The notes beneath the pieces were generated by a model. The model was not told where the DNA came from, did no database searches, and saw only the letters and a list, made by a program, of their open reading frames with translations. This document shows positions 5,133 through 61,222 of a stretch of DNA of 64,000 bases, piece after piece. This DNA comes from Anaspis maculata. Lineage: Eukaryota; Arthropoda; Insecta; Coleoptera; Scraptiidae. Position 1 is the first letter of the stretch. Every line of letters starts with the position of its first letter. The DNA is taken from contig OX421961.1 of assembly GCA_949128115.1 (NCBI GenBank), positions 120,221,050-120,285,049 of the forward strand, read 5' to 3'. Both the position numbers and the translations under genes were made by a program.

Positions 5133-7384
5133 TAGTGGAGTCGGCACGTTCGGAAAAAGTCCTGTTCACTGCATTTTTGAGTAATGCAATGCCCTTTGGC
5201 ACACATGTCCTCAGAGCCTATCTGAACCATTCTGTCCATCGCCGCAAGCAAAATTTTTGTTCAGATCCTGTATACAGGGTGAAGAAGAAAAACAATTTCA
5301 AAAAATTGCATCTTTTGAACGGACAAAGGTAGAGTATTGCAGGGCATGTCATATGATGCGCAATTGATGGTTGTTGAGGTACACCAAACCATTTTGAAAC
5401 ATTAGTTACCGTTTTTGAGATATTCTGAAAAAACTTAGATCTGTCAAAAAAAAACATTATGCTCATTATATCGCTTATTTTTGAAGATATCGGAATGAAA
5501 TTTGGTATTTGCCTTATAAAAGACGTCATAAATGAATAACAGCTGCAGTAATTTTCTAGGCCTACTATTTTCCTAAATAAGACAGTCAACTTTTTTGGAG
5601 GGGAGCCGCCATCTTGTTTTGTGAATATCAAGCTGATGACCGAAAAAATGACTGATAGTCATTGAGCTAGTATCATGCCGTTACTCTATCATGTGAAAGA
5701 TCACCTTGGATGGACCATCATACCATTTTTACTGGAAGAAAGATGATGCACGGATTTTATCAGATTCCTCAGAACTAAAGGATCTACTGCTAGCCATCGA
5801 GCCATTGCAAGTAATTGAACACCGCGATTATGACCCTTGATCATTCTTCAGGTTGTCTACCAATATTCATAGTCATAAGTTCAGCGGTTCGGTTTTAGCA
5901 GCTATCTAAATAAAATAGTGTCGATTTTTCATGAAAAAAACAGAAATTCACGAGGTCTCTGGGTCATTTCTTTGGTCATTGGAAAAAGATCCTCCATGGA
6001 ATTTTGATAAATTTATGCTGAATTATTAGAAAAAAGTGCATTCTTCAGTATAGGTTTTGAAAAACTGGCACAGGATGTTTTCATGTGATGTAGGACGAAT
6101 ATGAAAGACTATTTTAGTAGTCTAGTAACAGTAACAGTAACAGTAGTAACAGTCTAGTAACAGTAGGTAGGAAGCGAACAAATTATGCGGTAGGGCAACA
6201 CTAATAATAGAGAGAACCTTATAAATTTTGATGCCGCAAGTATTTTGGAATATACTCTATTCAGATTCCTCCTTCAGCTTTGGGAAATGTTGGCATGATG
6301 TCGATCTATGCAGATGACATCACAGGGTGATAAGAAATTGAAGAATTTCATCCCATCATCTAAATAGGCTGGAGGCATAAAAATCGCCAAAAAAGATCCA
6401 TAATTTAACGCTTAACAAGACAAAAGAAACCGTTTCGAACAATTTTCAGCCGTTTCTTCAAACTTATGCTATAGAGTGCACTTTTTTCTAATAATTCAGC
6501 ATAAATTTATCAACATTCTGTGGAGGATCTATTTCCGATGACCTAAGAATTGACCCAGAGACCTCGTAATTTTCTGTTTATTTTTCACGAAAAGGCAACA
6601 CTTCTTAATTCAAACAGCTGCTAAAACCGAACCGCTGCACTTATGGCTATGAATCTTGGTGAGCAACCTGAAAAATGATTAAAGGTCATAATTGCGGTGT
6701 TCAATTACTTGCAATAGCTCGATGGCTGGAAATAGGTCCTCTAGTTCTGAGGAACCCGATAAAATCAGTGCGTCATGTTTCTTTCAGCAAAAATGGTATG
6801 ATGGTCCATCCAAGGTGATCTTCCACAATATAAAGTAATGGCATGATACTAGCCTAATGACTATCAGTCATTTTTTCGGTCATCAGCTTGATATTCACAG
6901 AACAAGATGGCGGTTCCCCCTCAAAAAAGTTGACTGTCTTATTTAGTAAAATAGTAGGCCTAGAAAATAACTGCATTTGTAATTCATTTATGACGTCTTT
7001 TATAGAGCAAATACCAAATTTCATTCCGATATCTTCAAAAATAAGCGATATAATGAAGATAATGTTTTTTTTGACAGATCTCAGTTTTTCAAATATCTCG
7101 AAAACGGTTAATAATGTATCAAAATGGTTTAGTGTACCTCAACAACCAACAAATTCCGCATCATATGGCATGCCCTGCAATACTCTACCTTTGTCTGTTC
7201 AAAAGATGCAATTTTTTCAAATTGTTTTTCTTCTTCACCCTGTATACAGGATCTGAACTAAAATTTCGCTTGCGGCGATGGACAAAATTGTTCAAGCAGG
7301 TGCTAAGAACATGTGTGCCAAAAGACATTGCATTACTCAAAAATGCAGCGTATAATATCTATTGTACCGACCGCGACCCCACTA
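5133..7384. mobile_element. 2.25-kb foldback with TAG...CTA ends, 3-bp duplication
   Basis: The left end is TAGTGGAGTCGGCACG and the right end, read inverted, is TAGTGGGGTCGCGGTCGG. Inverted arms of about 900 bp (5133-6060 and 6470-7384) pair at roughly 85 percent by eye, and the loop is about 410 bp. TAG stands directly outside both ends (5130-5132 and 7385-7387). A further 10-bp direct repeat, GCAAAATTAG, lies at 5123-5132 and 7388-7397. It could be an alternative, longer duplication or a duplicated target. No protein is encoded; the short open frames are palindrome mirror images. The word TACAGGGTGA lies 140 bp inside the left end, as in the element at 55420. Confidence 0.85.
6118..6170. 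repeat. AGTAAC microsatellite
   Basis: Short interrupted run of AGTAAC units in the loop of the foldback. Confidence 0.8.
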
Positions 7385-7387
7385 TAG

Positions 7388-7790
7388 GCAAAATTAGTAA
7401 ACACACACAGACACCTAAAAATAAAACTGAAAACACATTAGTAAACAGGAAATACTAAAACAACACAAAACAACTCAAAAACTACCAACATGAACATGAC
7501 CTCAACATGATGATGTCAAGTGCGCACCCCGTGGACACGAGGAGCTGAAACAGAACCTACACCAAATATCTGACATGTTCCTCGCTAAAAGTTGACAACA
7601 ATCTCGGCATATCCATCATTGCTGGCCCTGACCAGACCAGACAGGTGATATCAAATCATCTTATAGCAAATGAAGCAGAATAATGAGCATATGACACTCC
7701 AACAAAAGGTACCGTACAACCTGCTTGGACAGTAAAAGCCCCTGATACATAGGCAAAAACAAAACATTGAAAAACTGTCAAATTAGGTTG
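7388..7790. other. Gene-free stretch, continuation of dispersed repeat
   Basis: About 7388-7500 is weakly the reverse complement of sequence near 33.06-33.2 kb, which makes it the other flank of the repeat hit by the foldback. Nothing else is recognised up to 7790. Confidence 0.45.
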
Positions 7791-7798
7791 GATGGAAG

Positions 7799-8530: not shown

Positions 8531-8538
8531 GATGGAAG

Positions 8539-8906: not shown

Positions 8907-8910
8907 ATAA

Positions 8911-10323: not shown

Positions 10324-10327
10324 ATAA

Positions 10328-11164: not shown

Positions 11165-11170
11165 TGTAAG

Positions 11171-12430: not shown

Positions 12431-12439
12431 GTCCTAGAC

Positions 12440-15611: not shown

Positions 15612-15613
15612 TA

Positions 15614-16744: not shown

Positions 16745-16746
16745 TA

Positions 16747-18170: not shown

Positions 18171-18174
18171 TTTG

Positions 18175-38600: not shown

Positions 38601-38722
38601 GAATTTTTAGGAACTGCGGGTCAAATTTTTCTGATGGGTCTAGACAACAAACATGCAAAGTGGCTTGCTTGTATCATCAAATGCCACTTTTTTTCAGTAA
38701 TCCTGGTGTACCGCTTGCACTA
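35673..38722. mobile_element. 3.05-kb foldback with TAG...CTA ends, 3-bp duplication
   Basis: The left end is TAGTGCTAGCGGTACG and the right end, inverted, is TAGTGCAAGCGGTACA. The 3-bp TTA is at 35670-35672 and 38723-38725. Inverted arms of about 965 bp (to about 36640, and from about 37757) pair closely, for example AGGGTCATAAATCCAAGATG with its inverse. The 1.1-kb loop contains the mirrored short repeats at 37080-37480. No protein is evident. Confidence 0.9.
37080..37480. repeat. Mirrored short repeats, second locus
   Basis: Units with TTTTTGACT.GAGT.TCCTCC and CCACCAGATAAAGAGC occur first in plus orientation (37090-37200), then inverted (37310-37475, CATCTGGTGGGTCTTGAA, GAGTCAAAA.CCAACT). 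Same family and layout as 18175-18375. Confidence 0.6.
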
Positions 38723-38725
38723 TTA

Positions 38726-40057: not shown

Positions 40058-40125
40058 GTGCCGGCGGACAGGCGAACACAAACGAAATAACACCAGCATC
40101 AATTTCACAGAAGAGACGTAGAGTG

Positions 40126-40611
40126 ATGCACTTGAACGTACAATCTTGCAGAAATAAAATAATTTATTTTTTTTTAATTTTATTTAATTGTCTTATTTTA
40201 CGAGGCGGCATTCAGCTATAAGCTGCTCTACCATGCAACCTCGGGGACAGCACAAAATATCCATGGATGAAGTAGGATTCGAACCCACACAGGGCAGCGC
40301 GAGTGGTTTGGCTTGCCATTACCTGTGCCACTCGCTGTACCATAATCGAACTCGATACCTATGTAAATCATGTAAACAAGCAGATTGACGTCCTATGTTT
40401 AAGTGAGCACTTTCTGACCGTGGAAGAGGCGGGCGCGTTTGTTATCAGTGATTTCACGTTATCATCTTTTTTCTGTAGAAAAAGTCAAACACATGGAGGT
40501 GTTCTTGTAATGTGTAGAAATAATGTTAGTTTTACATCGTTCGAAGAGATAAGTTTGTTGTCAGTGGAGGGCCATTGCGAGATGAAGCTCGTAAAAGAGA
40601 AACTTATCATA
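40126..40611 (+). pseudogene. LINE ORF2, N-terminal part of endonuclease
   Basis: Starts at ATG 40126 with the NVQSCRNK segment typical of an apurinic-type endonuclease start. It is interrupted by a SINE at 40164-40341, then resumes with IDVLCLSEH and THGGVLV, endonuclease motifs. It stops abruptly at 40611, where the gene-bearing DNA element begins. The continuation lies on the opposite strand from 45323 downwards. The frames join across the ATA duplication. Confidence 0.85.
40164..40341 (-). mobile_element. tRNA-derived SINE inserted antisense in LINE ORF2
   Basis: On the minus strand the head gives GTGGCACAGGTAATGGC (A-box-like) and GGTTCGAATCCTAC (B box). The A-rich tail appears on the plus strand as a T-rich tract at 40164-40190. 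ATAAT stands at both sides (40159-40163 and 40342-40346), consistent with a short target duplication. Confidence 0.75.
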
Positions 40612-42716
40612 TAGTGGAGCGAAATCGGCCTGAAAAGTCGTCGTTTTTTTTTTGAGGGTATAACAACACCAAACCCTATAGGTTTTATAGAGAATTAAAT
40701 TCTACGTATGATAGGTCATTTTGGGGATGTTCTTGTGGTAGGGACCTTTTTTATGCACAAAAAACCTCAAAAATTGGAAATGAGCTTTTCAGCATTCACA
40801 ACGTTATATCTTTGGATCCAAGTAAGCTATCGGTTTGATTTTTTTTTTAAATAAAAGTACATAGAAAGATCTTTTCAATGGTATATTACTGACAAATGAT
40901 AATTATCTATGAACTTGTTTATAGAAGAATAAACATTATATTGACCTATAATGCAGTCCCTCTTTGACCATGCGAAGAACTTTTTTCTTTATGAAAATTT
41001 TTGCATACAACCTGCGAGGAAAATGGAGTCAGAAGATTGAAGATAATTTTAAAGAAAATTTCATTGATCTAGGCCGTATAGTTTGTCAGTTATGAATTTT
41101 TTTCGGGCGCATTGAGTTGGCACGTCGCGTCGCCGAACGTGCGCTTGCATGTAGTAAGTAACTCACCGCATTACAAATAGTGATGGCGGCATGGCGCTCC
41201 TCACTCGCTATTTGTGGGTATAATTGGACGAATTATGATAAACAGTAATCATTGTTATGATTGTTGTAAATGCCTAATCATTATTAGGTATACTAAATGG
41301 TCATCAAATTCAAATCAAATTCTTGAGAAATAAGGGTTTATACATTGATATGGCACAATGCCTTTTTATTATTCTTCCTACTTGAAAAAAGGCCGATATA
41401 GCTGATACTCTTTTCAATAGAAAGATCATCTGAGTTTTCCTACTTTGTATTACAAAAAAGTATTCTTAAAAAATTTCTTCGTCATCGTCAAGTTCGTCCT
41501 GTATTACATTCATCTCGCAATTATCACACATCACACATTTACACTGTTCACAACATTTCATACCCTCTTTCACACAGTTGCACCTTTTGTTACTACACTT
41601 TTTGTCCGCACAATACAGATTTAAAGACTGCCGCACAACATCTGGAATCGGTGTTTGTGTTGAAAATACCGGATTCCAGATATCATCCAGTAAGCTCCAG
41701 CCCCAACTCCCAATATCCTCCTCGGCTGGTTTTGGAGTATCGCTCGAATACCAGATTCTGAGTTGGAGCAAGCATCTGTAATGTGAATGCATATTTTTAG
41801 TGAACAATTTCCTAAATAACGCTACTCTTCAACCTTAAGAAGTGCTGGTAGAAGGCATCATCTGTTGGTGGTAATTCAGAGGACGGCTTGTTTGACTCTT
41901 TAGCCATTTTAAGCCGCAAATGATTGAGAGTCGTGACGGTCGCGTCTTTGTTCCTATACAGTAACAGCACATATTGTGTTGCAACTTCCAGAGCTTGTTC
42001 CTTGGGTAGAATAGGCAATTTTGAGAGATTTTGAAACGCCTCAATATTCTTTTTCAGAATATCAAATGCCGTTCTCTTCCCGATTTTATACAGCGCGCTT
42101 GTGGTATCACATCCCGTTAAGCAATGCATCGATAGAAGACATGTTCCGATTGCTGTCCCCAAACTTTGTGCGGTTGTATGTATCGATACGAAACGCTTAT
42201 TCGTACCATGTCCGAGTTGCATATACAAAGCAGTTCTACATAGGTCAGGCCGAGACAAATAGAAGTGTATTAGCAGAATCAGAACATCAGTGTCCACTGA
42301 TTTGACCATTATCCGCTGGCAAAAGTTTGCTTCGTACACAGCATGCAAGATCAAACGAGTATCAGCTTCTTCTTGATTGCTGCATAGATCATTTAATGTG
42401 CGAACTGCTTTGTCTTTCTTCATCTCTACTACCGCTTCAGGGTTTTCAAATCCTCCGGCGACGATCAACGTTTCATCTTTTGTGAGATATTCACTGCCGT
42501 TGTAAACGATGTAGGTTGTAAGGAAGTTTAACAAGGACTGTTTATTTTTTAAGGATTTCAGGAAGTCACGAAACTTGTGCACTTTCCTACCACCAGTAAC
42601 ATTGAATACAACGGCATTACTTTCACCACGTCTTCTTCTTTCAGCTGCTTTAACCGAATGAGATTTGTAAGTGTCAAAAACCACTGTAATTCGTACAGCC
42701 TGGCATTTTCGTCCGG
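40612..42716. mobile_element. Copy 1 of the gene-bearing DNA element (2,105 bp)
   Basis: Identical by eye to 45324-47428, offset by exactly 4,712 bases. The outer end is TAGTGGAGCGAAATCGG, preceded by ATA (40609-40611) of the LINE. It contains 0.85 kb of non-coding end sequence and then the 3' part of the CXC gene on the minus strand. It ends at 42716, after GTCCGG, where LINE sequence on the minus strand begins. Confidence 0.88.
41466..42716 (-). pseudogene. Copy 1 of the XPG-like/CXC gene, 5' truncated
   Basis: Carries the last exon (41466-41775), the 58-bp GT-AG intron (41776-41833) and the 3' part of the preceding exon (41834-42716), all identical by eye to the second copy. It lacks everything upstream of the RITVVFDTYKSH region. 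The open frames are undamaged, so the truncation is recent or is an assembly effect. Confidence 0.8.
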
Positions 42717-45323
42717 GAGTAAAATGCTTTCTTCAGGAGCATGGACTTTACAACCGTTTTAAATTTAGGTAAGGACAAATGCACTATTTCTAGTGGTAAC
42801 TTATTAATGAATGTTGGACAGAAGTAATTTTTGCTGTATCGGCTTTTTGCTAGTCTAATATGATTTACTACCAGTCGATCTCTATTTCTAGTCCGATAAT
42901 CGTGTATATCCTCGTGCTTCCTATAAATGTTGATGTTTTTCTTACCCAGTATGAGGCACTGAAATATGTACAAACTTGGAAACGTTAGCAATCCCATATC
43001 AATAAACTTATCTTTGACATCATCACGGTAACCAATGCCAGACATCATTCGAACCACCCGGCGTTGCAGCCCAAAAACTCTCGAGGTATGTGGCGAGTGA
43101 CCCCAGCTCGTTATGCAATACGTCATCAGTGAAACAATCAAGCTGTGGTACGCGGACAACACAGCCTCACTCGGAAGAACAGGAATCAAGTTCCTCATTA
43201 TAAAGATATTTTTACAGATCTTTGGACAAACAAAATTTATGTGCTGCTCCCACGTCAACAGTGGGTCTACCACCACACCAAGAAACACAACATTTGGCGG
43301 TTTTTGATGGTTTTTCAAATTTCTTTGAGAAAAGATTATTTTCTTGGTCTTATTGACATTAAGGCTCAATCTATTCGCGGAGAACCAGTCACCCACGTTG
43401 GTCTCCATATCCTCCAGGTCGATTTGTAGTTCTCCCAAATCACAGCCGCGGCTTGTAAGGGTGGTGTCATCGGCGAACAACAGCAGGCCAGCACCAGGGA
43501 CCGCATGACTTATGTCATTGATGTAAATCAAAAATAAGATCGGTCCAAGTACCGACCCCTGCGGAACGCCGGAAGCCACATCCCCCACCTCAGAATTTAT
43601 GCCGTTAATCATGGTGTATTGTGTTCGCCCCGACAAAAAAGAGTTTATTAGGCCGACACTCTTAGCATCAAAATTGTAACTGAGCAACTTTTTGGACAAT
43701 ATTTCGTGCGACACGCAGTCAAAAGCCTTCTGCAAATCGCAGAAAACCGCACCCCGGTATTCACACTGTTCGTATGAGTCCACTATAAGGTCCACCAATT
43801 GCTCCACCGCTTGTGACGTTGATTTCCCTTTCCTGAATCCAAATTGTGACCCATAAAACAAATTATTATTTTCGAAGAACCCAGTTACTTGATTTTTTGA
43901 TATTGTTTCAATGATTTTTGACAAAACTGGAAGAATCGAGATGGGTCGGTAATTACCGGGATCCGCGGTGGAGCCCTTTTTATAAATCGGTATTACCTTC
44001 GATTTCTTGAGTGCCGCCGGAAAAATTCCTGAAGCGATAATTTTGTTTATTAGTTTGGTTAGAGGTGTTATTATAATGTTCTTAACGGTCTTTATCAACT
44101 GAACATTCATTCCGAAACAGTCGCGACTGCTCTTGTTTTTTAGTCCCTCAATTACCTACATCGCGAACCTCCACGAAAGAAACCTCCCTAAAAGCAAATG
44201 TTTCAAGAGCAGCTGCGCTGCCTCGGAGATATTCGCCAAATTTCTTCCTGGCGGAAGGAATTCCGTTGTGTATCGTGTTAGAAACATTGGTAAAAAATTC
44301 ATTGAGTTGATCAGGAGATAGCTCAGTTTTTGAGTGGGTTTTTGTTTTCTTTCGATGCAAATTAATCAAATTCCAGTAAGCGGAAGCGCTTCCGTTCGAT
44401 TTTTTAATATAATGTGCATACGCGGATTTTTTCGCTTTATTAAGTTGTTGCCTATACTCCAATCTACATTGTTTCACTTCACGAGCCAAAAAATCGGTCG
44501 GGTACGCCGCATATTCCTCCCTTATTGAATTTAACTCGTTTCGCTTGCTTCGCAGACCGTCGTGAAACCATCGTATGTTTGCAGATGCTGTTGACTTGGA
44601 AGAACACGTGGTTTTGATCGGGAAAGCAATTTTTATTGCGGTCGTAAAGTTACCAAGTAGCATGTCAAATGCAGCATCGACATCCACACCAGGCTGATCC
44701 ACCCAAGACCAGTCACAACTGTCAATGTATGTAAAAAATTTAAAACGGCCCTGCTCCGTGTAAAGGTTAGTTTATGATGAGCGATTTTTTGCCGCGATTT
44801 GAGCTGAGCTGAGCGGAGCGGAGCTATTTTTTTGCCTAGGCCAATTACGATGCGGGGAAGTGACATCATGAATGGACAGGATTGGTCCAGACAAAAAAAA
44901 ATCGCTCAGCTCAGCTCCGCTCCGCCGGGTATCGCTCATCATAAACTGAGCATAAGGCTGTGTCTTTATAGTGTAATTTTCCGGACCTGTATCTAGGTCG
45001 ACGTCAACAAATACCGCTTTATGATCGGACAAGCCGGGATCACTCACGAATGAATGATAAGCAACATCACAAGAACGACTCATCAAGATGTTGTCAAGGC
45101 AACTCGCGCCCCTGGTAGGTTCAAACAATGTAGCCCCAAAGTCATAAGTACCTATAAGGTCGCTAAATCTATTAAAATTGGCATCATTACATAAAAAATT
45201 GATATTGAAGTCGCCGGTAATAATTGCTTGTAAGTTTCTTCCAGCGACGATGCCCAACATTGCATCGAATGCATCCAGGAATACACCAAAATCGCCTGAA
45301 GGCGGACGATAAATTGTGACTAT
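42717..45323 (-). pseudogene. LINE ORF2, endonuclease C-half and reverse transcriptase
   Basis: Reads on the minus strand from 45323. The endonuclease part has TIYRPPSGDF, GDFNINF, SCLDNI and SDHKAVF (catalytic N, D and H context). A MITE lies at 44775-44941. The reverse transcriptase (44110-42717) has GVPQGSVLGPILF and the catalytic FADDTT, and ends near LLKKAFYS. About 4 extra bases (a GTAGGTA tandem, near 44155) shift the frame between the linker and the RT. The beginning of this ORF2 is on the plus strand at 40126-40611, so the two halves are inverted relative to one another. CR1/jockey-like by motif order. The 3' untranslated region is missing beyond 42717. Confidence 0.85.
44775..44941. 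mobile_element. Small palindromic MITE in LINE ORF2, TA-flanked
   Basis: Ends TGATGAGCGATTTTTTGCC and CGCTCATCA, with mirrored GAGCTGAGC/GCTCAGCTC blocks. TA is at 44773-44774 and 44942-44943. It is 167 bp and interrupts the endonuclease region. Confidence 0.75.
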
Positions 45324-46177
45324 TAGTGGAGCGAAATCGGCCTGAAAAGTCGTCGTTTTTTTTTTGAGGGTATAACAACACCAAACCCTATAGGTTTTAT
45401 AGAGAATTAAATTCTACGTATGATAGGTCATTTTGGGGATGTTCTTGTGGTAGGGACCTTTTTTATGCACAAAAAACCTCAAAAATTGGAAATGAGCTTT
45501 TCAGCATTCACAACGTTATATCTTTGGATCCAAGTAAGCTATCGGTTTGATTTTTTTTTTAAATAAAAGTACATAGAAAGATCTTTTCAATGGTATATTA
45601 CTGACAAATGATAATTATCTATGAACTTGTTTATAGAAGAATAAACATTATATTGACCTATAATGCAGTCCCTCTTTGACCATGCGAAGAACTTTTTTCT
45701 TTATGAAAATTTTTGCATACAACCTGCGAGGAAAATGGAGTCAGAAGATTGAAGATAATTTTAAAGAAAATTTCATTGATCTAGGCCGTATAGTTTGTCA
45801 GTTATGAATTTTTTTCGGGCGCATTGAGTTGGCACGTCGCGTCGCCGAACGTGCGCTTGCATGTAGTAAGTAACTCACCGCATTACAAATAGTGATGGCG
45901 GCATGGCGCTCCTCACTCGCTATTTGTGGGTATAATTGGACGAATTATGATAAACAGTAATCATTGTTATGATTGTTGTAAATGCCTAATCATTATTAGG
46001 TATACTAAATGGTCATCAAATTCAAATCAAATTCTTGAGAAATAAGGGTTTATACATTGATATGGCACAATGCCTTTTTATTATTCTTCCTACTTGAAAA
46101 AAGGCCGATATAGCTGATACTCTTTTCAATAGAAAGATCATCTGAGTTTTCCTACTTTGTATTACAAAAAAGTATTC

Positions 46178-46487
46178 TTAAAAAATTTCTTCGTCATCGT
46201 CAAGTTCGTCCTGTATTACATTCATCTCGCAATTATCACACATCACACATTTACACTGTTCACAACATTTCATACCCTCTTTCACACAGTTGCACCTTTT
46301 GTTACTACACTTTTTGTCCGCACAATACAGATTTAAAGACTGCCGCACAACATCTGGAATCGGTGTTTGTGTTGAAAATACCGGATTCCAGATATCATCC
46401 AGTAAGCTCCAGCCCCAACTCCCAATATCCTCCTCGGCTGGTTTTGGAGTATCGCTCGAATACCAGATTCTGAGTTGGAGCAAGCAT
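46178..46487 (-). CDS. XPG-like/CXC gene, last exon: tesmin-like cysteine cluster
   Basis: Final exon of the minus-strand gene, starting right after an AG acceptor (46488-46489). It encodes RCLLQLRIWYSS, then a W.WSL..D.W.P region and a cysteine-rich tail, CADKKCSNKRCNCVKEGMKC followed by CEQCKCVMCDNC, resembling the CXC (tesmin/TSO1) DNA-binding repeat. The stop codon is at 46178-46180. It is joined to the preceding exon by a 58-bp intron (46488-46545), and joining at GT-AG keeps the frame (phase 2). The cysteine cluster probably binds DNA or zinc; that is inference from the family. Confidence 0.8.
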
Positions 46488-46545
46488 CTGTAATGTGAAT
46501 GCATATTTTTAGTGAACAATTTCCTAAATAACGCTACTCTTCAAC
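46488..46545 (-). other. 58-bp GT-AG intron of the XPG-like/CXC gene
   Basis: Minus strand: starts GTTGAAGAG and ends TTACAG. It contains two in-frame stops (TAG, TAA). Removing it keeps the frame, FYQHFL then RCLLQL. The same intron is at 41776-41833 in copy 1. Confidence 0.7.
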
Positions 46546-48085
46546 CTTAAGAAGTGCTGGTAGAAGGCATCATCTGTTGGTGGTAATTCAGAGGACGGCT
46601 TGTTTGACTCTTTAGCCATTTTAAGCCGCAAATGATTGAGAGTCGTGACGGTCGCGTCTTTGTTCCTATACAGTAACAGCACATATTGTGTTGCAACTTC
46701 CAGAGCTTGTTCCTTGGGTAGAATAGGCAATTTTGAGAGATTTTGAAACGCCTCAATATTCTTTTTCAGAATATCAAATGCCGTTCTCTTCCCGATTTTA
46801 TACAGCGCGCTTGTGGTATCACATCCCGTTAAGCAATGCATCGATAGAAGACATGTTCCGATTGCTGTCCCCAAACTTTGTGCGGTTGTATGTATCGATA
46901 CGAAACGCTTATTCGTACCATGTCCGAGTTGCATATACAAAGCAGTTCTACATAGGTCAGGCCGAGACAAATAGAAGTGTATTAGCAGAATCAGAACATC
47001 AGTGTCCACTGATTTGACCATTATCCGCTGGCAAAAGTTTGCTTCGTACACAGCATGCAAGATCAAACGAGTATCAGCTTCTTCTTGATTGCTGCATAGA
47101 TCATTTAATGTGCGAACTGCTTTGTCTTTCTTCATCTCTACTACCGCTTCAGGGTTTTCAAATCCTCCGGCGACGATCAACGTTTCATCTTTTGTGAGAT
47201 ATTCACTGCCGTTGTAAACGATGTAGGTTGTAAGGAAGTTTAACAAGGACTGTTTATTTTTTAAGGATTTCAGGAAGTCACGAAACTTGTGCACTTTCCT
47301 ACCACCAGTAACATTGAATACAACGGCATTACTTTCACCACGTCTTCTTCTTTCAGCTGCTTTAACCGAATGAGATTTGTAAGTGTCAAAAACCACTGTA
47401 ATTCGTACAGCCTGGCATTTTCGTCCGGAAATCAGAATAGTTTCCAGAAACACTTTCGCCAAGTCATTGAATGTAACGAATCTCTTCTCATTCAACTCTT
47501 GAATGGTCACCATGCCGTCAATTATGAAAGATTGCACTGAAGGGCAATCACTTTGAGAGTTTGACGCGTCTTCTAATTTCTTGGCCAAGTCCGATTTTGC
47601 GGTTTTCCGCATGGCGCCGTCTTCATGGAACAATGATGATGGGACCAGCGTCAGTTCATGGGACAATATCCTGGTCAAGTCTATTTCGTGTACTTGTGCA
47701 GCACATAATATTCTGCGGAACATTAATTGGGAACCAACAACGGAATTTCCCGTTGTGACTTTGGCTTTGACTTTGTTTTCCTTGAATGTTGATACTTGGT
47801 TTCTCTTATGAGGTTTCCAAAAGCTTGAATCGCCATTTCCTTTCCATATTGAGCTTGTGCTCGTTTGTACCTCATCAATGAAAGTACTTAAGCTCTTTTC
47901 GGTATCCTCACTGACTTCTCTTCCGGTACAAATATTAATCAGGGAAGAGGGAACTTTGCTCAAGTCGAACGGATTATACCAATCATTTTCAATTGTTTGA
48001 ACCATTTTCAAGACAAAGATTTCATTCTGTTTTTGCATAGCATATCCCTCCTTTCTTTGTCGATTCTCCAGTCTAGATGCGGCTC
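46546..48085 (-). CDS. XPG-like/CXC gene, large exon: nuclease-like domain
   Basis: About 513 codons, from GAGCC after an acceptor (TTAG at 48086-48089) to TTAAG before a donor (GTTGAA at 46545). The order of features is: a variable N-terminal part, a VVFDTYKSHSVKAAERRRR motif, then QEEADTRLILHA, SVDTDVLILLIHFYLS and TGCDTTSALYKIGKRTA. The last three, acidic residues with VDTDVL and a G-KRTA helix, resemble the XPG-I and helix-hairpin-helix parts of XPG/FEN-type nucleases. The resemblance is inferred by eye; a profile search would decide. It is undamaged. Confidence 0.8.
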
Positions 48086-48146
48086 CTAATATGAACAATA
48101 ATTGGTTATTCAAATGATAATATCATCAAATTCAACATGTGATTAC
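48086..48146 (-). other. 61-bp GT-AG intron of the XPG-like/CXC gene
   Basis: Minus strand: GTAATCACATG at the 5' end and CATATTAG at the 3' end, with T-rich sequence and a TTTGAATAACC-like branch region. Removing it joins ...QNFLG to AASRLEN in frame, while reading through meets a stop. Confidence 0.7.
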
Positions 48147-48559
48147 CCAAGAAATTTTGAGAATATTCTCCCATTGTGTGCCTGGTCACGATCCAGCGGA
48201 GGAGAGCGGATGGTTTTTGTGAGAATCCAATGACTCCTGAGTGACTCTTACACTCTCTGTTGATGGATTGTTCTAATGCCATGTCTGATGCCACGCAGTT
48301 GAACTTTTTTTCGTTGGTCTTCTTTACGACGAAATTCCCTTCTGCCAAGAAATCATACATGTATGGAATTTGTTGCTTCAGCTCCTCCATGTCACTCAAA
48401 TATACTGGCACCCATTTCGAATACAGGTTACGTCCAGCAGCCGACAGATAAGGTAATACATCATGAACCGCGGATAAATGGGAGTTAAAGTCACCATCTC
48501 TTTCTGCACGCAACATCCTCCAAAGCAGATCTATTGCTTCAAGAAAGAAGTGCCAGTAT
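48147..48559 (-). CDS. XPG-like/CXC gene, middle coding segment (downstream of the foldback)
   Basis: From YWHFFLEAIDLLWRMLRAER through LPYLSAAGRNLY.KW.PVYLSDM to TRHTMGEYSQNF, about 137 codons, ending at the donor at 48146. The 5' side is cut by the foldback at 48563-52539. The segment is undamaged apart from that. Its content (LRAERDG, AAGRNLYSKW) is shared with a family of roughly 1,100-residue uncharacterised animal proteins that I recognise only by pattern. Confidence 0.75.
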
Positions 48560-48562
48560 TTG

Positions 48563-51500
48563 TAGCCCAGTCATCCTAGCTCATTTCAGGGCTTGAGGTC
48601 GGAATCTCTCCCATAAAGCTGGATTTTTGCATACATGTCCAGAAAACAGCTCTCTTTCTATTAGTGATGAAAAAAATTTCTGAGACCCGGAGCGTTTTCC
48701 GCCATTTTGAAAAATCTGTCAATTTTTTCAGTTTTTCTTGAATAACCCTGTGAATATTCAACTTATTGGCATGAAAGTTTTTGCAGTGGTTAGAGCTTGA
48801 GATTCTGCAACCAATGTTGCCAAAAATATTTTTTTAGATTCCATGGTTTCTGAGAAATGTCAAATGAGTTAAGCGACTTTATTCACTTTCATCATTTCAT
48901 TTGACCAATTGAAAAAAAATTATCGGGCTTTCAACAGATCTGCCCTTTTTTGCATTCGAGTACACATAAAATAAGCTTCCAAAAAATATTCATATGTCGG
49001 TCGGTCTGCAGGTCTAACGGTCAGTCTGGTGGTCGGTCTGTTGAATTTTGTGCCCAGATTTATTCCCAAGCCGTTGAACCGATCCCGACCAAATTTGGTA
49101 GATTCGTAAGTGACAAGGTTTCAACGACAAAAACCAAATGTCATCTTGATCTGTCACTTGGAAGTGTCACTACAAAAGAATGACAGAAGGTCTATCTCAC
49201 CGAATGCAACTTGTGACACATCATTTTAAAGCCCTCAAAAAGAAGCATACAAAATGGTCAGTGAGAACCTTCAATGTTGCGTCTGTCAAAAAATCACAAG
49301 CTGTCAAACTTTAAATTTTAACTTTTCATAAATCTTGAAGTACGGAACAGAATTGAACCAAACTTTGTTCCCAACAAGAGTGCCTCGCAATTATTTGATG
49401 GATCATAAAATGTACCGGCAGCAGACAGGGATGCAACCTGAAGAAAAAAAATTGCCTAGTCATCTGAGCCTGTAATGTACCTACTTGAAATAGTAAAAAA
49501 ATCATCCTTCGCTTGGAGAAAGTAGTTCTCAAACGATTTTTTTGCTATATAGTTAGCTCTTCCCCACCTCTTCAACATGGTAAAAGCAGACATCCCTGTG
49601 ACGTGTAGTATTTAGTATACAGGGTGAACATTGAAAAATGAATATTTAAAAATGTTTTTTCCGTTGAAATAATCCTCGAGAAAAACAGTCTTTCATCATT
49701 AAGCAACTTTATAGTCTCCTGCTGAACATGTGAAAAATGTACCACTCCATAGCCGCTGGTATTCCACGTACAGGGTGCAATCGATTTTTTCCAATATTTC
49801 TATCGTTATCGAATAAATCAAAACAAAAACCATTTCCAGCTCTGTTACAAGCCTATAATCTCTTATTCAATATACAAAAATGTCAGATTTCTGAAACTGC
49901 AGAAACACAACATACAGGGTGAGACAAAAAATTGATTTCACCCTGGTACGTAGAATACCAGCGGCTATAGAGGGGTACATTTCTCATATGTTCGATAGGG
50001 GATCATAAGGTTGCTGACCAATGAATGACTGTCTTTTTCGAGAATTATTTGACCTTGAATAAAAAAGTTAAAAGATTTATTTTATTATTTTCACCCTGTA
50101 TACCTACTAAAGTAGACGCGTCACAGGGATGTATGCTTTTGACATGTTAAACAGGTAGGTATAAGCTAACCATATAGCAGCAAACCGTTTGAACTAGTCA
50201 TCTGAGCCTAGCTGTGAAACAGAAATTTCTAAATCGCACTTGGATCGAGCTCAACATCTGTACATATCGTCCGTCATCTCATCTCACGTAGTTTCGTAAC
50301 TGATTTTTGATATTTTTTGCATGTCCTTTTTATATCATTTTCGATACACATTTGTAAGATAATATCGCCAGTTTTGCATGAAGAATTTTCAGAAGAGGAC
50401 ATGAGAAAAAATACCAAAACTCAGTTACAACACTACGTGAGATGACGAAAGATATGTGTGGAGAAGACCTCTCACTATAAACATCTAGGGCCCGAAGGAT
50501 ACAACACCATTTCCAAGACAAGAGCCATCTTTTCACAGTTGCTTGTAGTTACATTTCCATCGAGAATTCTGTCTACATACCTACAGTTTTCAGGAGATTT
50601 GCGACAAAAGACTTTATGAGGCAGGGGCCTCGGTCATTGGGATATATTGAATACCATGGGGTGTAGTTTTCCAGCCCTAATCCAGAAACTTGTTCTTCAC
50701 ATCACGTCCAAAGATTATCACGTCCATCACGCCATGTTTGTACTTGATGGTACACTTGAAAAGAATGCTGTGTGTTTAAGGGTTAGAGAGTAGTCAAGTC
50801 CACTTTCTCGCATGTATTGAGAAATGTATTTATTTTTGCTTCTGCATGTCACCTTGGATATGAACTTTTTATGGTTATTATTTGCCGTCAAAAAAAACTG
50901 CAAAAAAGGATTTTTTCCTCGCTTTTTTCTATCTGGAAGCCGTTTGTACGCCAGAAATGATTGTAGATTTATTGATTGTAAAGTCAATCCTCAGCCGTAC
51001 TTCTTATACGTTCCCTTATTCACTGATAAAGCTTCTAGTCTTATATTTTTTGTATAAGTAGATATATACTTACTTGCAGTATATAGTCTATACTTTATAG
51101 ACTTTATAGTCTCCTATTGAACATGTGAGAAATGTACCCCTCTATAGCCGCTGGTATTCTACGTACAGGGTGAAATCAATTTTTTGTTTCACCCTGTATG
51201 TTGTTTTTTGCAGTTTGAGGAATCTGACATTTTTGTATCTTGACCGAGAGACTAATGGCTTGTAATAGAGCTGGAAGTGGTTTTTGTCTTGATTTATTTG
51301 ATAAAGATAGAAAATATTGGAAAAAATCGATTGCACCCTGTACGTAGAATACCAGCGGCTATGGAGTGGTACATTTTTCACATGTTCAACAGGACACTAT
51401 AAAGTTGCTAAATAATGAAAGCCTGTTTTTCTCGAGGATTATTTCAACGGAATAAACATTTTTAAATATTTATTTTTCAATCTTCACCCTGTATACTAAA

Positions 51501-52539
51501 TAGTACACGTCACAGGGCTGTCTGCTTTTACCATGTTGAAGAGGTGGGGAAGAGCTAACCATATAGCAAGAAAACCGTTTGAGAACTACTTTCTTCAAGC
51601 AAGAGATGAGTTTTTGACTATTTCAAGTAGGTACACTACAGGCTCGGATGACTAAGCAATTTTTTTTTTCTCAGGTTGCATCCCTGTCTGCTGCCGGTAC
51701 ATTTCATGATCCATCAAATTATTGTGAGGCACTATTGTTGGGGACAAAATTTGGTTCAATTCCGTTCCGTACTGCAAGAGTTATGACAAGTTGAAATTTA
51801 AAGTTTGACAGCTTGTGATTTTTTGACAGACGCAACATTGTAGGTTCTCATTGGCTATTTTGTATGCATTTTTCCGAGGGCTTTAAAATGATGTATCACA
51901 AGTTGCATTCGGTGAGATAGACCTTCTGTCATTTTTTTGTAGTGACATTTCCAAGTGACAGATCAGGATGACAATTGGATTTTGTCGTTCAAAACTTGTC
52001 ACTTATGAATCTACCAAATTTGGTCGGGATTGGTTCAACAGCTTGAGAATAAATCTGAGCACAAAATTCAACAGACCGACCACCAGACTGACCGTTAGAC
52101 CTGTAGACCGACCGATATATGAATATTTTTTGGAAGTCTTTTTTATGTATACTCGAATGCAAAAGAGTGCAGATCTGTTGAAAATACGATAATTTTTTTT
52201 CAATTGGTCAAATGTAATGATGAAAGTGAATAAAGTGGCTTAACTCATTTGACATTTCTCAGAAACCATAGATCCTAAAAAAATATTTTTAGCAACATTG
52301 GATGAAAAATTTCAAGCTCTAATCACTGCAAAAACTTTCATGCCAATAAGTTGAATATTCACAGAGTTATTCAAGAAAAACTGAAAAAATTGACAGTTTT
52401 TTCAAAATGGCGGAAAACGCTCCGGGTCTCAGAATTTTTTTTTATCACTAATAGAAAGAGAGCTGTTTTCTGGACATGTATGCAAAAATCCAGCTTTATG
52501 GGAGAGATTCCGACCTCGAATGCTAGGATGACTGGGCTA
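48563..52539. mobile_element. 4-kb foldback inside the gene, TAG...CTA ends, 3-bp duplication
   Basis: Ends TAGCCCAGTCATCCTAG and its inverse. TTG is at 48560-48562 and 52540-52542. Long inverted arms (to about 50100, and from about 51105) share many blocks, such as CCATAAAGCTGGATTTTTGC and GCCGCTGGTATTC. Several TACAGGGTGAA-like words lie in the arms (49617, 49768, 49914). A smaller palindrome is at 50240-50470. Excision with one TTG restores the frame of the surrounding gene. No protein of its own is evident; the long minus-strand frame at 52371-52538 is a run-in from the host gene. Confidence 0.9.
50240..50470. repeat. Inner palindrome in the foldback loop
   Basis: GTCATCTCATCTCACGTAGT on the left is mirrored by CTACGTGAGATGACG on the right, with further pairing of the flanks. 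Confidence 0.65.
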
Positions 52540-52542
52540 TTG

Positions 52543-53612
52543 AACGTAGTAGATGAACTGCAGCCTGAATTGATGAATTCTGCTATGATTCGATCATAGT
52601 CTTCCATTCTTGTAATAAGTATTTCAAGGCTATTCCCGTCCACTTTGTATTTTTGCATGGTGAAAATAACTGAGTTCATGAGGTGTTGCAGTTCATCGGG
52701 TATAAAATTTTGGCTCTTGGTTTCTTCGTACCATTTGACAAGACTACCCAAAAATAGTCGGGACATAGCATCAGCTGCTTGTGTTAGACCACGGATAGCT
52801 CGCGAGTATTGTTTTCCTTCCAGCATAAGTCTGCAGGAGTTTTCTGCAAAAATGTTAGTCTCGACCAGTACGGAAGTAAGACCTCCTTCACCAAAAATAT
52901 ATCCAATACTAGCAATAAATGCCATAGTGAGATGCATCCCTCCAAGTTGCAAAGTGACTTTACCGGCCAACTCTGGAGGATCATTCCAGAGAATTTCACG
53001 TGCTTTTGAGTAGATTGCCAAATCGGCAGTTATGACGATATGGGCTTGATCGAGCTTCTTTGCCAACTGCACTAGTCGGACCACTGCAGTATATATAGTG
53101 TCAAATTCTGTCGGGGGAGCATTTAGAAAAGGAAGGTATGATATAGTCGAAATTGGTATGTTATTTTCCGACAAGATGTTGTGAAAATCGGTCCATCCCA
53201 AGAAAAAGTCATTTTCCTTGAAAAATCGTAACATTCGCCAAAGCTGGTTGAGTTTTTTGGAGTGATCATACTTTTCACGATTCATAGTTGGAGATTCAAA
53301 CTTTTTTGGTTCTGGACGTACCTTGGGCTTATCATACTTCAAGATCTGTTGAAAACGTAAGTCAGCTTCTTCGTTGGTCAAGGCATATTTTCCTCCTTTG
53401 ATTATATCACCAAGCGATTGCACAGACTTTGCTTTTTGGAACACCACCATGGCCATTGAATGTGTCGTGCGTTTGCCGTCAATAGTTTCTTCATTGAGAT
53501 CGAAGTTATCTATACTTGCATGGATGTAATTTTTCTTTGCTGCATCGATTTTTTCTATGTTTTGTGGTACATATATGTCAATAATTCCATATGGCAGAGT
53601 TCCCAGTCTTGT
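52543..53612 (-). CDS. XPG-like/CXC gene, N-terminal coding segment
   Basis: About 356 codons on the minus strand from just after a TGA at 53613-53615, where a TTGAACAAG acceptor-like sequence suggests an upstream intron. It opens with PYGIIDIYVPQN and has the motif DNFDLNEETIDGKRTTHSM, followed by AMVVFQ. Later recognisable stretches are IVITADLAIYSKAREILW, HLTMAFIASIGYIFG and ILITRMEDYDRIIAEFINSG. It runs to SSSTTF at the foldback. Start codons inside (53456) are probably not the real start because the family-like motif extends upstream. The true N terminus is not found in the window. Confidence 0.75.
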
Positions 53613-53681
53613 TCAAAGTACTTTGAAGAGTAAGTTCACCAAATTTGGTGCTTGTATCACAATTTGCAAAGTAGAAACATA

Positions 53682-54542: not shown

Positions 54543-54544
54543 TA

Positions 54545-55315: not shown

Positions 55316-56239
55316 GATTCTCATTTTTCAGATTATGCATATTTGCACCTGCACCTTCCCCTCGATCATACTTAGGTACTTTCGAAAAGACGACAAGACG
55401 TTGTTCCGTTTGAGCTATATAGTCCGGATGCTAGTTGCATAAAATGGAATGAACCTTGCATTTTTTGATGAGAAGATGCTACTTGGTGGAAATGTTCTTT
55501 GCATCATACTCTTCCGATCCAGAAAGGTAGCCATCAGCGCCATCCATGCCAGCAGCGTATACAGGGTGAAACAGAAAAAAAAAGTTGGAAAATTATATTT
55601 AAATAACCTTAACATGTGGAGACGTGTAATTTACCACATACATCAACTGTTTTATGCTCATGAAGTCACAGCAAACCGTTTGTGAACAACTTGAACCGTC
55701 TTCGAAATGTAGGGGAAAAACAGAAAAAAAAACAAAAACACTCTTTTTTCCATAAATAAACGATTCTTAGAGATATTGACACAATACTTGGTATTTCTAC
55801 AAAAAGTAGTGTTAGAAATGATATAAGCTGAGTAGCCAATTCCTAAGCCAACTATTTCCAGAAATACGATTGTCAACTTTTTTTTCCTCTTGATCACCAT
55901 CTTGAATCTGCCCTGTAAGGCATCGTTGGAAAAGTGATTGGTTATCATAATAATGGTAATATGTAATCATTGCATCGTAAGATCAACCTCCTCATCGTAA
56001 TTTAGTGACCTCTTCGGCGGGAAAGAATTGCCATTCACGTAGTTTCTGGCTCTTCAAAGTTTTAGTGCCCATGATGGCATTTGCAACATCTGGAATGATA
56101 AAATATGTTACGCATTAAGAACCTTGATGTACTTTGAGGTAGCCTACCAAGTTTTGCAATCATCAATCGGAAGGTTTGTTCTCAAAAGCTGTTCGAACAA
56201 AATTTGTTGAATTTTTTTATGGAAAATGCAAAATATTGG

Positions 56240-56810
56240 ATCTTTCACCCTTATTTGATCCCTCGTTGAGGAAAGCCTGAGATCGAAGGTCTTCAAAATT
56301 TCCATGCTAATGGTTCACTGAGAACTGCTCTTCAATGTGTAGTTGTCAAAATCTGCATAGTTGCGTTCAGATTCCAGACAGAGAGCGACAAAGAAGTTCA
56401 TGCAGTGAAAAAAGACACAACTTTCAATGCAACGGAGAAATCCCGGAAATGTCCCTTTTAGATAGGCTTCCCGCAATACACAGGTTCTGTAAGACTCTCA
56501 AGCGTGGGTGAAAGGCTTGACACATTACTAACTTTAGGCTCTAACAGTGTACCAAATTGCACATTTATGTTATGAAAAGCAAGGTCTCCAGACAGCTTTC
56601 AGTCTAGCCATAGACTTGTTTTTTTTTTCGACTGTAATTTATGTCTTTTTTCACTGCATCAACTTCTTTGTCGCTCTCTGTCTGGAATCTGAACGCAACT
56701 ATGCAATTTTTGACAACGTAACATTGAAGAGCACTTCCCACTGAACCATTATCATTAAAAACTCGGAGACTTTTGGTTTCAAGCTATCCTCAGTGAGGGA
56801 TCAAGTCTGT
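56240..56810. mobile_element. Nested TIR element in the left arm
   Basis: TTGATCCCTCGTTGAGGA near the left and the inverse TCCTCAGTGAGGGATCAAG near the right bound it. The mirror arm on the right side of the big foldback (near 60230-60265) runs straight across this point, showing it inserted later. AGACAGAGAGCGACAAAGAA pairs internally with its inverse. Confidence 0.65.
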
Positions 56811-57669
56811 GGCTAGGAGGCAAAAGGGCATAACTCTGATTTAGCAACTTTTCAGGAGAAGCAAATAACTGGAAAAAATACATAAATGATTGTAGACAAC
56901 GCAATATTGGATGGAACACTTCAATTTTTTGCAGGAAGTTACAACTGATTATCATCATCCATACTTACTGGTTTTGGGCCTTTTGATTGTTTCTGGTTTG
57001 GAAGAAAACTGGTTTTCCGGAAAGGTTATGGAGTTATTCCAAATTTTGTGAAATCAGCGAACCGCCAAAAGGGTATAACTCGACATATTAGGAGAATGAA
57101 CAAACATTCAGATCAGCAAAAGCTGATATGTCGAGTTATGTCTTTTTGCCTAACCTACTAGCTGCATAAAATTTTAATTAATTTTGACATATCTCGAGTT
57201 ATTCTGCTGAAAAGGGACCGTTTTTTTCGATACCTACATGCAATAAGGGATAAAAAATTGCGCATTGCAATTTTATCCTTATGTAAATAAATCTTCATTA
57301 CCGGGCATGCCTCGCAACGGAATACACTTTTTCACTGTTAAAAAGTATCATTGATTCTAATTCAAATTCTCAAATTGTTTAGCACTCTTCAGCTGCTTCG
57401 AAGAAAAAATGATTAGGCAACTGAAATTTTCCAAGAATATTTCGAAAAATTTCAATTTCAAACAGTCAAAGCTAATCAGATGGTCAAACCAAGTCACCAT
57501 TTCAATTCTGGTGTTCTAACTAAACAAAAATAAAATTGGACCAACATCAACACCAAAATTGGAATGATGACTTTGGATGGTTTGATCATCTAGAGGGTGT
57601 CCTAGCTAAAACAACCCAGCCCGATTTAAACAGAAAATATCAAGGCAATAAAAAAATCAATTGGGGGGA

Positions 57670-58141
57670 AGCCTGACCTTTTAGCTTTCTTTCCAGGGGC
57701 GCCTATGCTTGTAGGTGCTCTAGTTCACAAGAAAATGCAATTTTAATCGGGCGAGTCACAAGAATGCAGAAATTCAAGACCGACGAAACAAAATACTTCA
57801 GATGAAAAACAATCCTCTTGCTCTGGGCTCTCCATTGATGGCATTGATGTGTCGCAGATTTCTGTACTCTGTACCTGGTCCTGTGTGTGATCAGTGACGT
57901 CATGGGTTCCAATCATTGTATTTGCTGGACTGTAAGACAAAATATCTTTCTTAGTGGACCAGGTACAGATCAGCGACACATCAACGGAAAGCTCAGAGAG
58001 AAAAGATTTTTTTTTCATCTGAAGCATTTTGCTTTGTCGGTCATGAATTTTCGAATTCTTGTGACCCGCCCGATTAAAATTGCATTTTCTTGGAAACTCA
58101 AGTACCTACAGGCATCCGGCGCCCCCTCAAAAGAAAGCTAG
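57670..58141. repeat. Central palindrome of the large foldback
   Basis: AAGAAAATGCAATTTTAATC and the inverse GATTAAAATTGCATTTTCTT, with CTTTC.TT.CAGGGGCGCC at the outer edges, pair around a turn near 57910. Confidence 0.7.
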
Positions 58142-59799
58142 ATGAAATTTTCTGAAAATATTCCTGATAAATTTCAGTCGCCTGCGAATATGACATCAGA
58201 TTTTGAAAAAGTCTATAAAGGATGACTTTGTCTACAGAAACGGTCCTCTATTCTTTTCATGAACAAATAGGGCGCTGCAAATGGCCTTGGTGTTGGAATA
58301 CACCTGCAAAATTTCAATCGATTCTATATTCTATTGATTTATTCGTGAGACATGGCCAACCAAAGTCCAAATGCAGACTCTGATATGCGGGATTTGCTTC
58401 GAAAAAGTACCATCCACTCTCAAGCTATGTCGGTTATTTCGTGAGACACCTGTATATTTTTTTTTCATTCCGGGTCTGATATTATCCTCCTGAAATAAAA
58501 AAATAACAGGTCCAAGATGTGTTCGATGGGTGCCAGAAAATACAGCAAATATAAAAAATCGCTGCATACAGGGTGAAACATCTAGTTCACATAACAAAAA
58601 TTCCTATTTGAACTATTAAAATAAGTTGGATTTTGTGAATAAGCCCATGTATTCTTGAATTTATTTTTAAGAATATGCAATAAATAGCTAGTAAATGTCT
58701 CGAGCCATTTTCGAAATATCTTGAAATTCTTGATAATATTTCAAAGATAAATTAAAGATTGTTCGAGATATCGCAATGAAAGTAGATTAAGTAAAAATAT
58801 TAGATATACCTACGGTCCACTATGAGAATAACATTCTATGAAGCATAACAATAATATTTCCCTTACTTGAACTGTACCTACCTGGTGAACTCTTTCCTTG
58901 GCTTACAAGTGGGCAATTCTGACGTTATTTTCGATAAAAGTAGCTTGTAATCTCATACATCATCCATAAATCAAATTTAAGGCTGAATCTCCTCGGCATG
59001 GCATTGGCCGCAATTTTCTTTATTCGTTTATTCAACGTCGGCCTATTTCCACAACGAGGCCTAACACTGACGCCGGTGAATGCTTTCCTTCACTACACCG
59101 GAAATTTTGCTGAAGTCCTGTGTGTTCCAACAGAGAGTATGGATTTTTAACGACCACCAACATCGCATGGAGTCGGTACCATCGTTCGTATTTTACGTGC
59201 TATGCCCGCAAAATGATATTCTTGCTTTTTTTTGTCTTATAAATTTTCCGAAATCGAAACCGCATCTGAAATTACAAGCAAATGTGAATATGCTTCAAAG
59301 AATTCCTTGTTCATAATAGAACGACGGTATAGCGAGCGGTATAGGTACATCAATATTTCCACTATTCCCGACTAGCAAACGGAATATCAAATATAGCAAA
59401 GATTCAAGATGGCGGCCACGGGAAAATAAGAAATGTGACTAGCGTATTTTCAAACATAGGAGACATAGAAGTTGAAAGCCGATCACATTTCATTTCCAAC
59501 ATCACTTTTTCAAAAGTTTCGTGATGGAATTTGAAAAAATGACTGATTTATTGCCGAAAGTCACTTTGTCGAAGAATTTCAGGAATTTCAAGATACCTAC
59601 ATATTTCAAGAAAAGCACAGGATATTGAAGAACTGTTTCTTGCACCTTTCTACTAATGGAATCACCAATCTATGGTCTGATTCACATGGTTCCACTTATT
59701 CTGGTTCATGAGATTTTCAATTTCTCAACTTTATGTCTCACCTTGTGTGCATCACGGGACCTGTGTTGAATACTGGCGAGGAACTGGAGATTCATGGCA

Positions 59800-59930
59800 T
59801 TTCGCCCCCGCAAAAGGGTATAACTCGAGTTATCTAAGCTATCTCGAGCTATCTAGAGAGCGGAGTGATCATTCGTATTCTAACAGAAAGGCATATCTCG
59901 AGTTATGCCCTTTTGCTGTGTCCCATGAAT
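59800..59930. repeat. Inverted GCAAAAGGG.ATAACTCGA motif pair
   Basis: GCAAAAGGGTATAACTCGAG at 59808 and the inverse CTCGAGTTATGCCCTTTTGC at 59906. The same word recurs singly at about 57070, 57130, 59950, 60060, 60100 and 60225. Confidence 0.65.
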
Positions 59931-61222
59931 TGGTTTGCGAGGTATTAACTAGACTTATGTCCTTTTGCTCGAACGGCTGAAGACAATGATAGAAGAATAA
60001 GTCAAGTTATATCATTTTGCCAGGTAGGCTCTCTCAAAGTCTATCGCATAAGTTGATTTATGTCTTTTTGCTAGGAACAAATTTCATATTTCTAGAAGAT
60101 ATGCCCTTTTGTTCGAAAAAAACTTTTTTATTTTTGGGAATTTGACTATGAGCTTTTGCCAGATGATGAGAACACATTTTTTAAGCGCAATGGAGCGAAA
60201 AAAAATTTTTGGGCAAAATTGACTTATGCCCTTTTGCCTCCTAGCCACAGAAGTAAGGGTGAGAGACCCAATATTTTGTATTTTTCTTAAAAAAAACTAC
60301 ACAAATTTTGTTCAAACAGCTTTTAAGAACAAACCTCTCAATTGATGATGGTGAAACTTGGTAGGCTACCTCAAAGTACATCAAGGTTCATAATGCGTAA
60401 CATATTTCACTATTCCAGATAGTGCAAATGCCATCATGGGCACTAAAGCTTTGAAGAGCCAAAAAATACGTGAATGACAATTCTTTCCCGCCGAAGAGGT
60501 CACTAAGTTATGATAAGGAGGTTGTTTTTGCGATGCAATGATTTCATGTTACCATTATTATAATAACCAGTCACCTTTTCAACGATGCCTCACAGGGCAG
60601 ATTCAAGATGGTGCTCAAGAGGAAAAAAAAAGTTAACAATCGTATTTCTGGAAATAGTTGGCTTAGAAATTGACTACCCAGCTAATATCATTTCTAACAT
60701 TACTTCTTGTAGAAATACCAAGTATTGTGTCAATATCTCGAAGAATCATTTATTTATGAAAAAAAAAGTGTTTTTGTTTTTTTTTCCCGTTTTCCCCCTA
60801 CATTTCAAAGATGGTTCAAGGTAATCAAGAACAGTTAGCTGTGACTTCATAAGCATAAAATAGTTAATGTATGTGGTGAGTTACACGTCTCCACATGTTC
60901 CGGTTAACTAAATATAATTTAACAACTTTTTTTTCTGTATCACCCTGTATGCGCCGCCGGCATGGATGGCGCTGATGGCTACCTTTCTGGATCGGAAGAG
61001 TACGATGCAAAGAAAATTTCCACCAAGTGGCATCTTCTCATCAAAAAATGCAAGGTACTTTCAACTAGCATCCGGACTAATACCTTTCGAAGAACTCCTC
61101 GATTTATTCACTAGGCAAACATATCAAGGAACTTGAAGGTCCTCATTTGGTTCAATTACAATGAAGGACTGCGCTCATGGGTAAAGGAAAGTTGAGTGAG
61201 TACCTAAGTATGAAGTGATATG

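Follow-up and report, generated by a model that had tools for sequence, protein, structure and literature searches.

The locus

The window analysed here is a stretch of 64,000 nucleotides from the beetle Anaspis maculata (contig OX421961.1, positions 120,221,050 to 120,285,049, assembly GCA_949128115.1), and it contains four large “foldback” elements, FB1 to FB4, together with a coding element whose transposase gene includes a predicted nuclease, and whose end occurs twice beside the halves of a split long interspersed nuclear element (LINE). The coordinates are given in Table 1.

Table 1. Foldbacks, coding element and split LINE in the window, with terminal sequences, target duplications and arms
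Feature	Position	Strand	Details
FB1 foldback	5133..7384	.	TAGTGG...CCACTA; 3-bp duplication TAG (5130-5132 / 7385-7387); arms 5169-6065 / 6452-7348, 88.9% identity
FB2 foldback	35673..38722	.	TAGTGC...GCACTA; 3-bp duplication TTA (35670-35672 / 38723-38725); arms 35691-36643 / 37751-38694, 88.9% identity
LINE left half	39023..40611	+	ORF1 (first open reading frame), start of endonuclease; ends ATA at element end
Second copy of same element end	40612..42716	-	2,105 bp, 100% identical to 45324-47428
LINE right half	42717..45323	-	Inverted; remainder of endonuclease and the reverse transcriptase; ATA at its start, next to element end
Academ-type element	45324..53612	-	One end TAGTGGAGCGAAATCGG at 45324; transposase gene read leftwards to that end; interrupted by FB3
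CXC (cysteine-rich, tesmin/LIN54-like) C-terminal exon	46178..46487	-	Splice sites read by eye
Putative intron	46488-46545	-	GT...AG, 58 bp, between nuclease and CXC exons
FEN/XPG-type nuclease exon	46546..48113	-	P0001 = open reading frame 46524-48113; probable exon end, GT donor read by eye
Gene continuation beyond FB3	48106..48562	-	Conserved DMALEQSIN segment (probable third acidic residue)
FB3 foldback, within transposase gene	48563..52539	.	TAGCCC...GGGCTA; duplication TTG (48560-48562 / 52540-52542); arms 48563-50011 / 51101-52539, 91.8% identity
N-terminal transposase part	52540..53612	-	Start of RNase H-like DDE domain, first two acidic residues; from homologues, alignment and fold matches
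FB4 foldback	55420..61079	.	TAGTCC...GGACTA; duplication ATA (55417-55419 / 61080-61082); arms 55420-56256 / 60251-61079, 88.5% identity

Foldback ends and target duplications

The original prediction had placed four foldbacks in this region, and all four were recovered where it put them, with their 6-base starts, inverse ends and flanking 3-mers TAG, TTA, TTG and ATA. Their arms are about 0.84-1.45 kb long and 88.5-91.8% identical in a self-comparison of the window; in the case of FB2 the base just outside the terminal inverted repeat (TIR) also pairs, so that a boundary one base further out is an alternative reading. No match of at least 100 bp was found between different foldbacks in the self-comparison (E 1e-10). 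The longest stop-to-stop frames lying wholly inside the elements have 146 (FB1, in an arm), 123 (FB2), 92 (FB3) and 120 (FB4) amino acids, and a tblastn search with 114 proteins of the transposase family gave no match in FB1, FB2 or FB4.

In order to take the choice of boundaries out of the foldback test, the window was scanned, using no prior coordinates, for pairs of boundaries separated by 150-8000 bp in which the TIR starts agree exactly over 6 bases and the arms, but not the flanks, are homologous. The scan returned 344 candidate boundaries, 9 of which have a TAG start. A 3-bp duplication accompanies four of these nine, which are exactly FB1 to FB4, compared to 3 of the remaining 335. By hand arithmetic the chance of this association under random assignment is about 1e-5, a figure for which the 344 candidates are not independent, because several sit in the same arms. 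An earlier variant of the scan, which lacked the shared-word prefilter, gave eight pairs with 3-bp duplications (one extra, non-TAG), and FB1 to FB4 were again the sole TAG pairs.

The foldback shape itself is not specific to the TAG group, because TA-flanked inverted-repeat elements are also present in the window (9106-10007, 569-777, 53682-54542 and 22484-23736). The word ACAGGGTGA recurs, often symmetrically, in the arms of both TAG and non-TAG foldbacks, at places which include 5274, 7243, 49619, 51492, 53852, 54372, 55561 and 60948; its distance from each end is 131-141 bp in FB1 and FB4, and 18 of the 20 places that match a loosened form of the pattern are within inverted-repeat elements.

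For some of the duplications the “empty site” that preceded the insertion can also be reconstructed. When the flanks of FB3 are joined at a single TTG, the resulting sequence (...SSSTTFKYWHFFLEAIDLLWRML...) contains no stop and the transposase reading frame is restored, and the alignments of relatives P0024, P0022 and P0032 stop and restart at this point (residues 172/172, 153/153 and 406/405). Not every alignment stops at the edge of FB3, since among the 114 proteins those of P0020, P0110 and P0113 run 70-166 bp into the foldback from one side and those of P0095 and P0103 do so from the other. The joined flanks of FB1 are spanned by a diverged paralogous stretch at 33296-33090 (68.5% over 213 columns), in which TAG occurs once. 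For the coding element, joining the left half of the LINE (ATA, ending at 40611) to its inverted right half (ATA at 45323) yields a single endonuclease frame, ...EKLII-VTIYRPPSGDF.... The restored frame, the paralogous site and the LINE frame therefore support three of the five duplications beyond the flanking letters. FB2 and FB4 are without such support: the joined flanks of FB2 are matched only at 62 and 64%, by a stretch that is degenerate and repetitive and was not counted as an empty site, and those of FB4 have no spanning match in the window.

The coding element

The gene had been described as encoding an XPG-like protein with a CXC tail, and this description is supported, by a predicted fold and acidic residues for the XPG/FEN-type nuclease and by TCR/CXC matches in relatives for the tail. 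A P-element-like DDE domain is also predicted in the same gene family, from a model of the relative P0091 and from fold matches, and for this reason the XPG protein can most probably be regarded as a transposase that carries an additional nuclease. The putative active site of the DDE domain is drawn from conservation and the predicted fold. In the nuclease, which is assigned to the FEN/XPG type by its predicted fold, the acidic positions are retained, and a role in transposition may be supposed.

Searches of individual parts gave results of varying strength. Pfam gave no match on P0001; among the 22 relatives of A3, three match DUF6589 (best 7.3e-4), the A3 profile gave a single chance-like match against PDB (E 0.89), and Foldseek with the DDE model gave no match at 1e-3. 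The CXC exon has only weak, below-cut-off matches in the window frame itself, while the TCR/CXC family is found in 4 of 31 relatives (best 4.8e-6) and LIN54 is matched with the A1 profile at E 0.011. TTYGAA, the site of LIN54-type CXC domains, is not clearly enriched, with none in the coding end and, in the eight ends of the foldbacks, 0-3 per 300 bp, compared to 1.06 expected. The named relatives nearest to the N-terminal part are from beetles, Rhamnusium bicolor (71 and 75%) and Leptinotarsa (60%), each match covering 42-51% of the query, which would suggest a beetle host. Searches for other copies of the coding element gave 22 pattern matches in viral contigs and 5 in genome contigs, none of them confirmed, and none in plasmids.

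This copy looks dead as it stands: it is interrupted by FB3, its exons could not be traced beyond 53612, and the window did not yield its second end. Relatives have at least 61 more residues upstream of the N-terminal part, which were not found in the window, and the 114 family proteins gave no tblastn match beyond 53620. Among CTA ends to the right of 53600, the best candidate for the second end agrees at 10 of 12 bases, and matches this good occur three times in the window.

Relationship between the foldbacks and the coding element

TAG as the first three bases and a 3-bp duplication are common to all five elements, and TAGTGGAG is common to the left end of FB1 and the coding element. Resemblance further inwards was evaluated by aligning terminal regions, taking the best of left and right ends, and comparing the scores with those of single-base shuffles in which the first six bases were held fixed. 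By this measure there is a clear relationship between the terminal regions of FB1 and FB4 (global z 7.5, local z 11.2), a weak one between FB1 and FB2 (4.4 and 1.6), and a weaker one still between FB2 and FB4 (3.0 and 2.5). The elements fall into at least two families: FB1 and FB4 have terminal sequence in common, and FB3 resembles the coding element in hardly more than the outermost bases. The single shared-end family that had been proposed holds for its TAG...CTA ends and 3-bp duplications, but is more aptly described as several families of one superfamily-like group. It is likely that this group includes both the foldbacks and the coding element.

Three results weigh against so close an association. 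No 9-base word of the coding end, allowing one mismatch, occurs in at least three of the four foldback families (0, compared to 0.07 in shuffles). Alignments of the coding end to the foldbacks give a global z of -0.9 to 1.8 and a local z of -0.3 to 0.8; the exception, one of the ten family pairs compared, is a weak local match to FB3 (z 3.4, p 0.003). The Repbase family rule, which combines the same duplication length with identity over terminal positions 1-11 at one mismatch, separates the foldbacks from the coding element, as the best agreement is 8 of 11 positions, with a duplication length of 3 in all. 

The foldbacks could accordingly belong to some other superfamily with 3-bp duplications and TAG ends, the Academ-type element being a mere neighbour with a convergent start. 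Such a separation is favoured by several observations: the ends of the coding element are not clearly similar to those of FB1, FB2 or FB4, FB1 and FB4 are far more alike than either is to the coding element, and the foldback interiors, with their short frames and, in FB1, FB2 and FB4, their lack of tblastn matches, give no clue. It must nevertheless account for the agreement of all five elements in duplication length and first three bases and for the word shared by FB1 and the coding element, and the other groups with 3-bp duplications that came into question, CACTA and Harbinger, were rejected for their terminal sequence or target. We regard it as rather unlikely. The more specific claim of the original prediction, that this coding protein mobilises the foldbacks, may be true, but the ends gave no support for it: no 9-base end word is common to three or more of the foldback families, and the end alignments do not exceed shuffles apart from the weak match to FB3.

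Classification

The nuclease of AcademX elements is of the XPG type, and the Academ superfamily with its AcademX lineage is reportedly defined in Repbase, the references being said to be Kapitonov and Jurka 2010 and Kojima 2020. The likeness of the coding element to this lineage is one of described features: it has a DDD/E transposase domain, a nuclease and a 3-bp duplication (ATA, from one insertion with two LINE junctions). In the passages concerned, Academ is placed among the DDD/E superfamilies (PMC9587614), and duplications of 3 or 4 bp are given for AcademX and of 9 or 10 bp for AcademH, apparently tied to the encoded nuclease and helicase respectively (PMC10045372). No helicase, the mark of AcademH, was found by Pfam in six window frames or in the 14 families listed per set of relatives, the 5' part of the element lying outside these data. 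The suggestion that Academ is the nearest group is supported, and the element fits a known, little-studied group of transposons better than a new kind. A literature search for Academ together with XPG gave no match.

The predicted P-like DDE fold of the coding family also recalls the P superfamily and its member Galileo, for which the sources, as far as the relevant passages go, describe long TIRs, a foldback shape and the production of inversions (PMC2775673, PMC4168063), with duplications of 7 or 8 bp in Galileo and, for the majority of insertions of P elements, 8 bp (PMC4168063). The elements here differ in their 3-bp duplications, XPG nuclease and CXC tail, and membership of the P superfamily was rejected on the duplication length. 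CACTA/EnSpm elements produce 3-bp duplications and have TIRs that start with CACTA; they were rejected because the present elements start with TAG and end with CTA, the opposite orientation. The target of PIF/Harbinger elements is TWA, and these were rejected because the targets here are TAG, TTA, TTG, ATA and ATA and the coding protein is of another type. The foldbacks FB and Tetris of Drosophila have long inverted repeats, as do FB1 to FB4, but differ in duplication lengths and coding partners. For PIF/Harbinger, too, 3-bp duplications are recorded in the passage concerned (PMC2213677).

Proposed mechanism and significance

On balance, the locus probably holds a damaged coding element of the AcademX lineage and four non-autonomous foldbacks of the same superfamily-like group which were moved in trans. 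In the mechanism envisaged, the P-element/hAT-like RNase H (DDE) domain would cut and join the element ends, the target cuts being staggered by 3 bp (as in the one insertion observed, with ATA); the FEN/XPG-type nuclease may act on flaps, hairpins or overhangs where ends have been excised or joined, and the CXC tail may hold the DNA. Academ-type transposases would recognize TAG...CTA ends and so move the foldbacks with 3-bp duplications; the ends and duplications are observed, and from them we infer the mobilization.

Academ elements seem to have received little study; the passages concerned name the superfamily and its duplications and give no mechanism. The locus offers a concrete system in which to ask why a transposase would carry its own flap or hairpin nuclease, with readable empty sites, a predicted P-like DDE domain beside a FEN/XPG-type nuclease, and large non-autonomous candidates as neighbours. 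It also raises the question of whether foldback relatives, which are known in the P superfamily (Galileo), occur in Academ as well.

The double end and the split LINE

The LINE, whose right half contains a Pfam reverse transcriptase (1.3e-34), is arranged in the order left half, 2,105-bp element end, inverted right half, and then the same end followed by the gene. It had been noticed that the gene-bearing element begins with TAGTGGAGCGAAATCGG at both LINE junctions with a duplicated ATA, and this is correct for 40612 and 45324; these are, however, not the opposite ends of a simple insertion: one and the same end is present twice, in the same orientation and with 100% identity over 2,105 bp. 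A simple insertion is ruled out because the like ends point the same way with a LINE half inverted between them. At position 42716/42717 the truncated element end breaks off against the inverted LINE half, close to where the reverse transcriptase frame ends, and self-comparison of the window revealed no recognizable continuation of the LINE past this breakpoint.

In maize, matching duplications at both inversion junctions are taken, in the passage concerned, to confirm a single “alternative transposition” event of the ends of two elements (PMC8225341). The maize events use a 5' and a 3' end, whereas the coding element here presents two like ends. By analogy, a like-end version of the process, followed by deletion at 42716/42717, would fit the present arrangement: the same end in two copies, located on sister chromatids or in adjacent elements, would have been synapsed and inserted together, which would produce the matching ATA at both LINE halves, the inverted half and the identical 2.1-kb ends. 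A bolder proposal is that the transposase, with its two nucleases, would not only move foldbacks but also create them: like ends would be used again and again, the FEN/XPG nuclease would open or resolve the hairpins, and giant palindromic derivatives would result. We consider this quite improbable.

The 2,105-bp copies might instead be the arms of a long-TIR autonomous foldback, a later inversion with breakpoints in an arm and the LINE having flipped the right half. The same end does stand at both LINE halves with matching ATA, and long arms are common in the region, as the foldbacks show, but the arms would then include coding sequence, they are 100% identical compared to 88-92% in the other foldbacks, and the inverted copy of the rest of the gene which is predicted to the right of the N-terminal exon is absent from the window (self-comparison, at least 100 bp). 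This origin is accordingly unlikely. An assembly error as the source of the duplicated end and inverted LINE half is equally doubtful: a perfect 2.1-kb direct repeat beside a truncated LINE is a plausible site for a misjoin, but the window contains no N, and both LINE junctions share ATA and the halves rejoin into one open frame. The shared ATA and rejoined frame imply that the LINE halves come from one insertion event even if the present arrangement is wrong.

Within the right half of the LINE there is a small inverted-repeat insertion at 44768-44949 (TAGTTTATGATGAGCGAT / TCAGTTTATGATGAGCGAT), the flanking 8-mers of which (GTAAAGGT / GCATAAGG) match poorly.

Other features of the window

No match to Rfam at gathering thresholds and no tRNA was found in the window. 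A probable hAT-type element at 61223-62108, rich in GTATTTTGTATTT-like repeats, has inverted ends CAGGGCTGGGCA... and a perfect 8-bp duplication, GTGATATG. A tandem array with TGGAATGTTCC-like words, for which overlapping periods of 219 and 329 bp are called, occupies 24686-25843.

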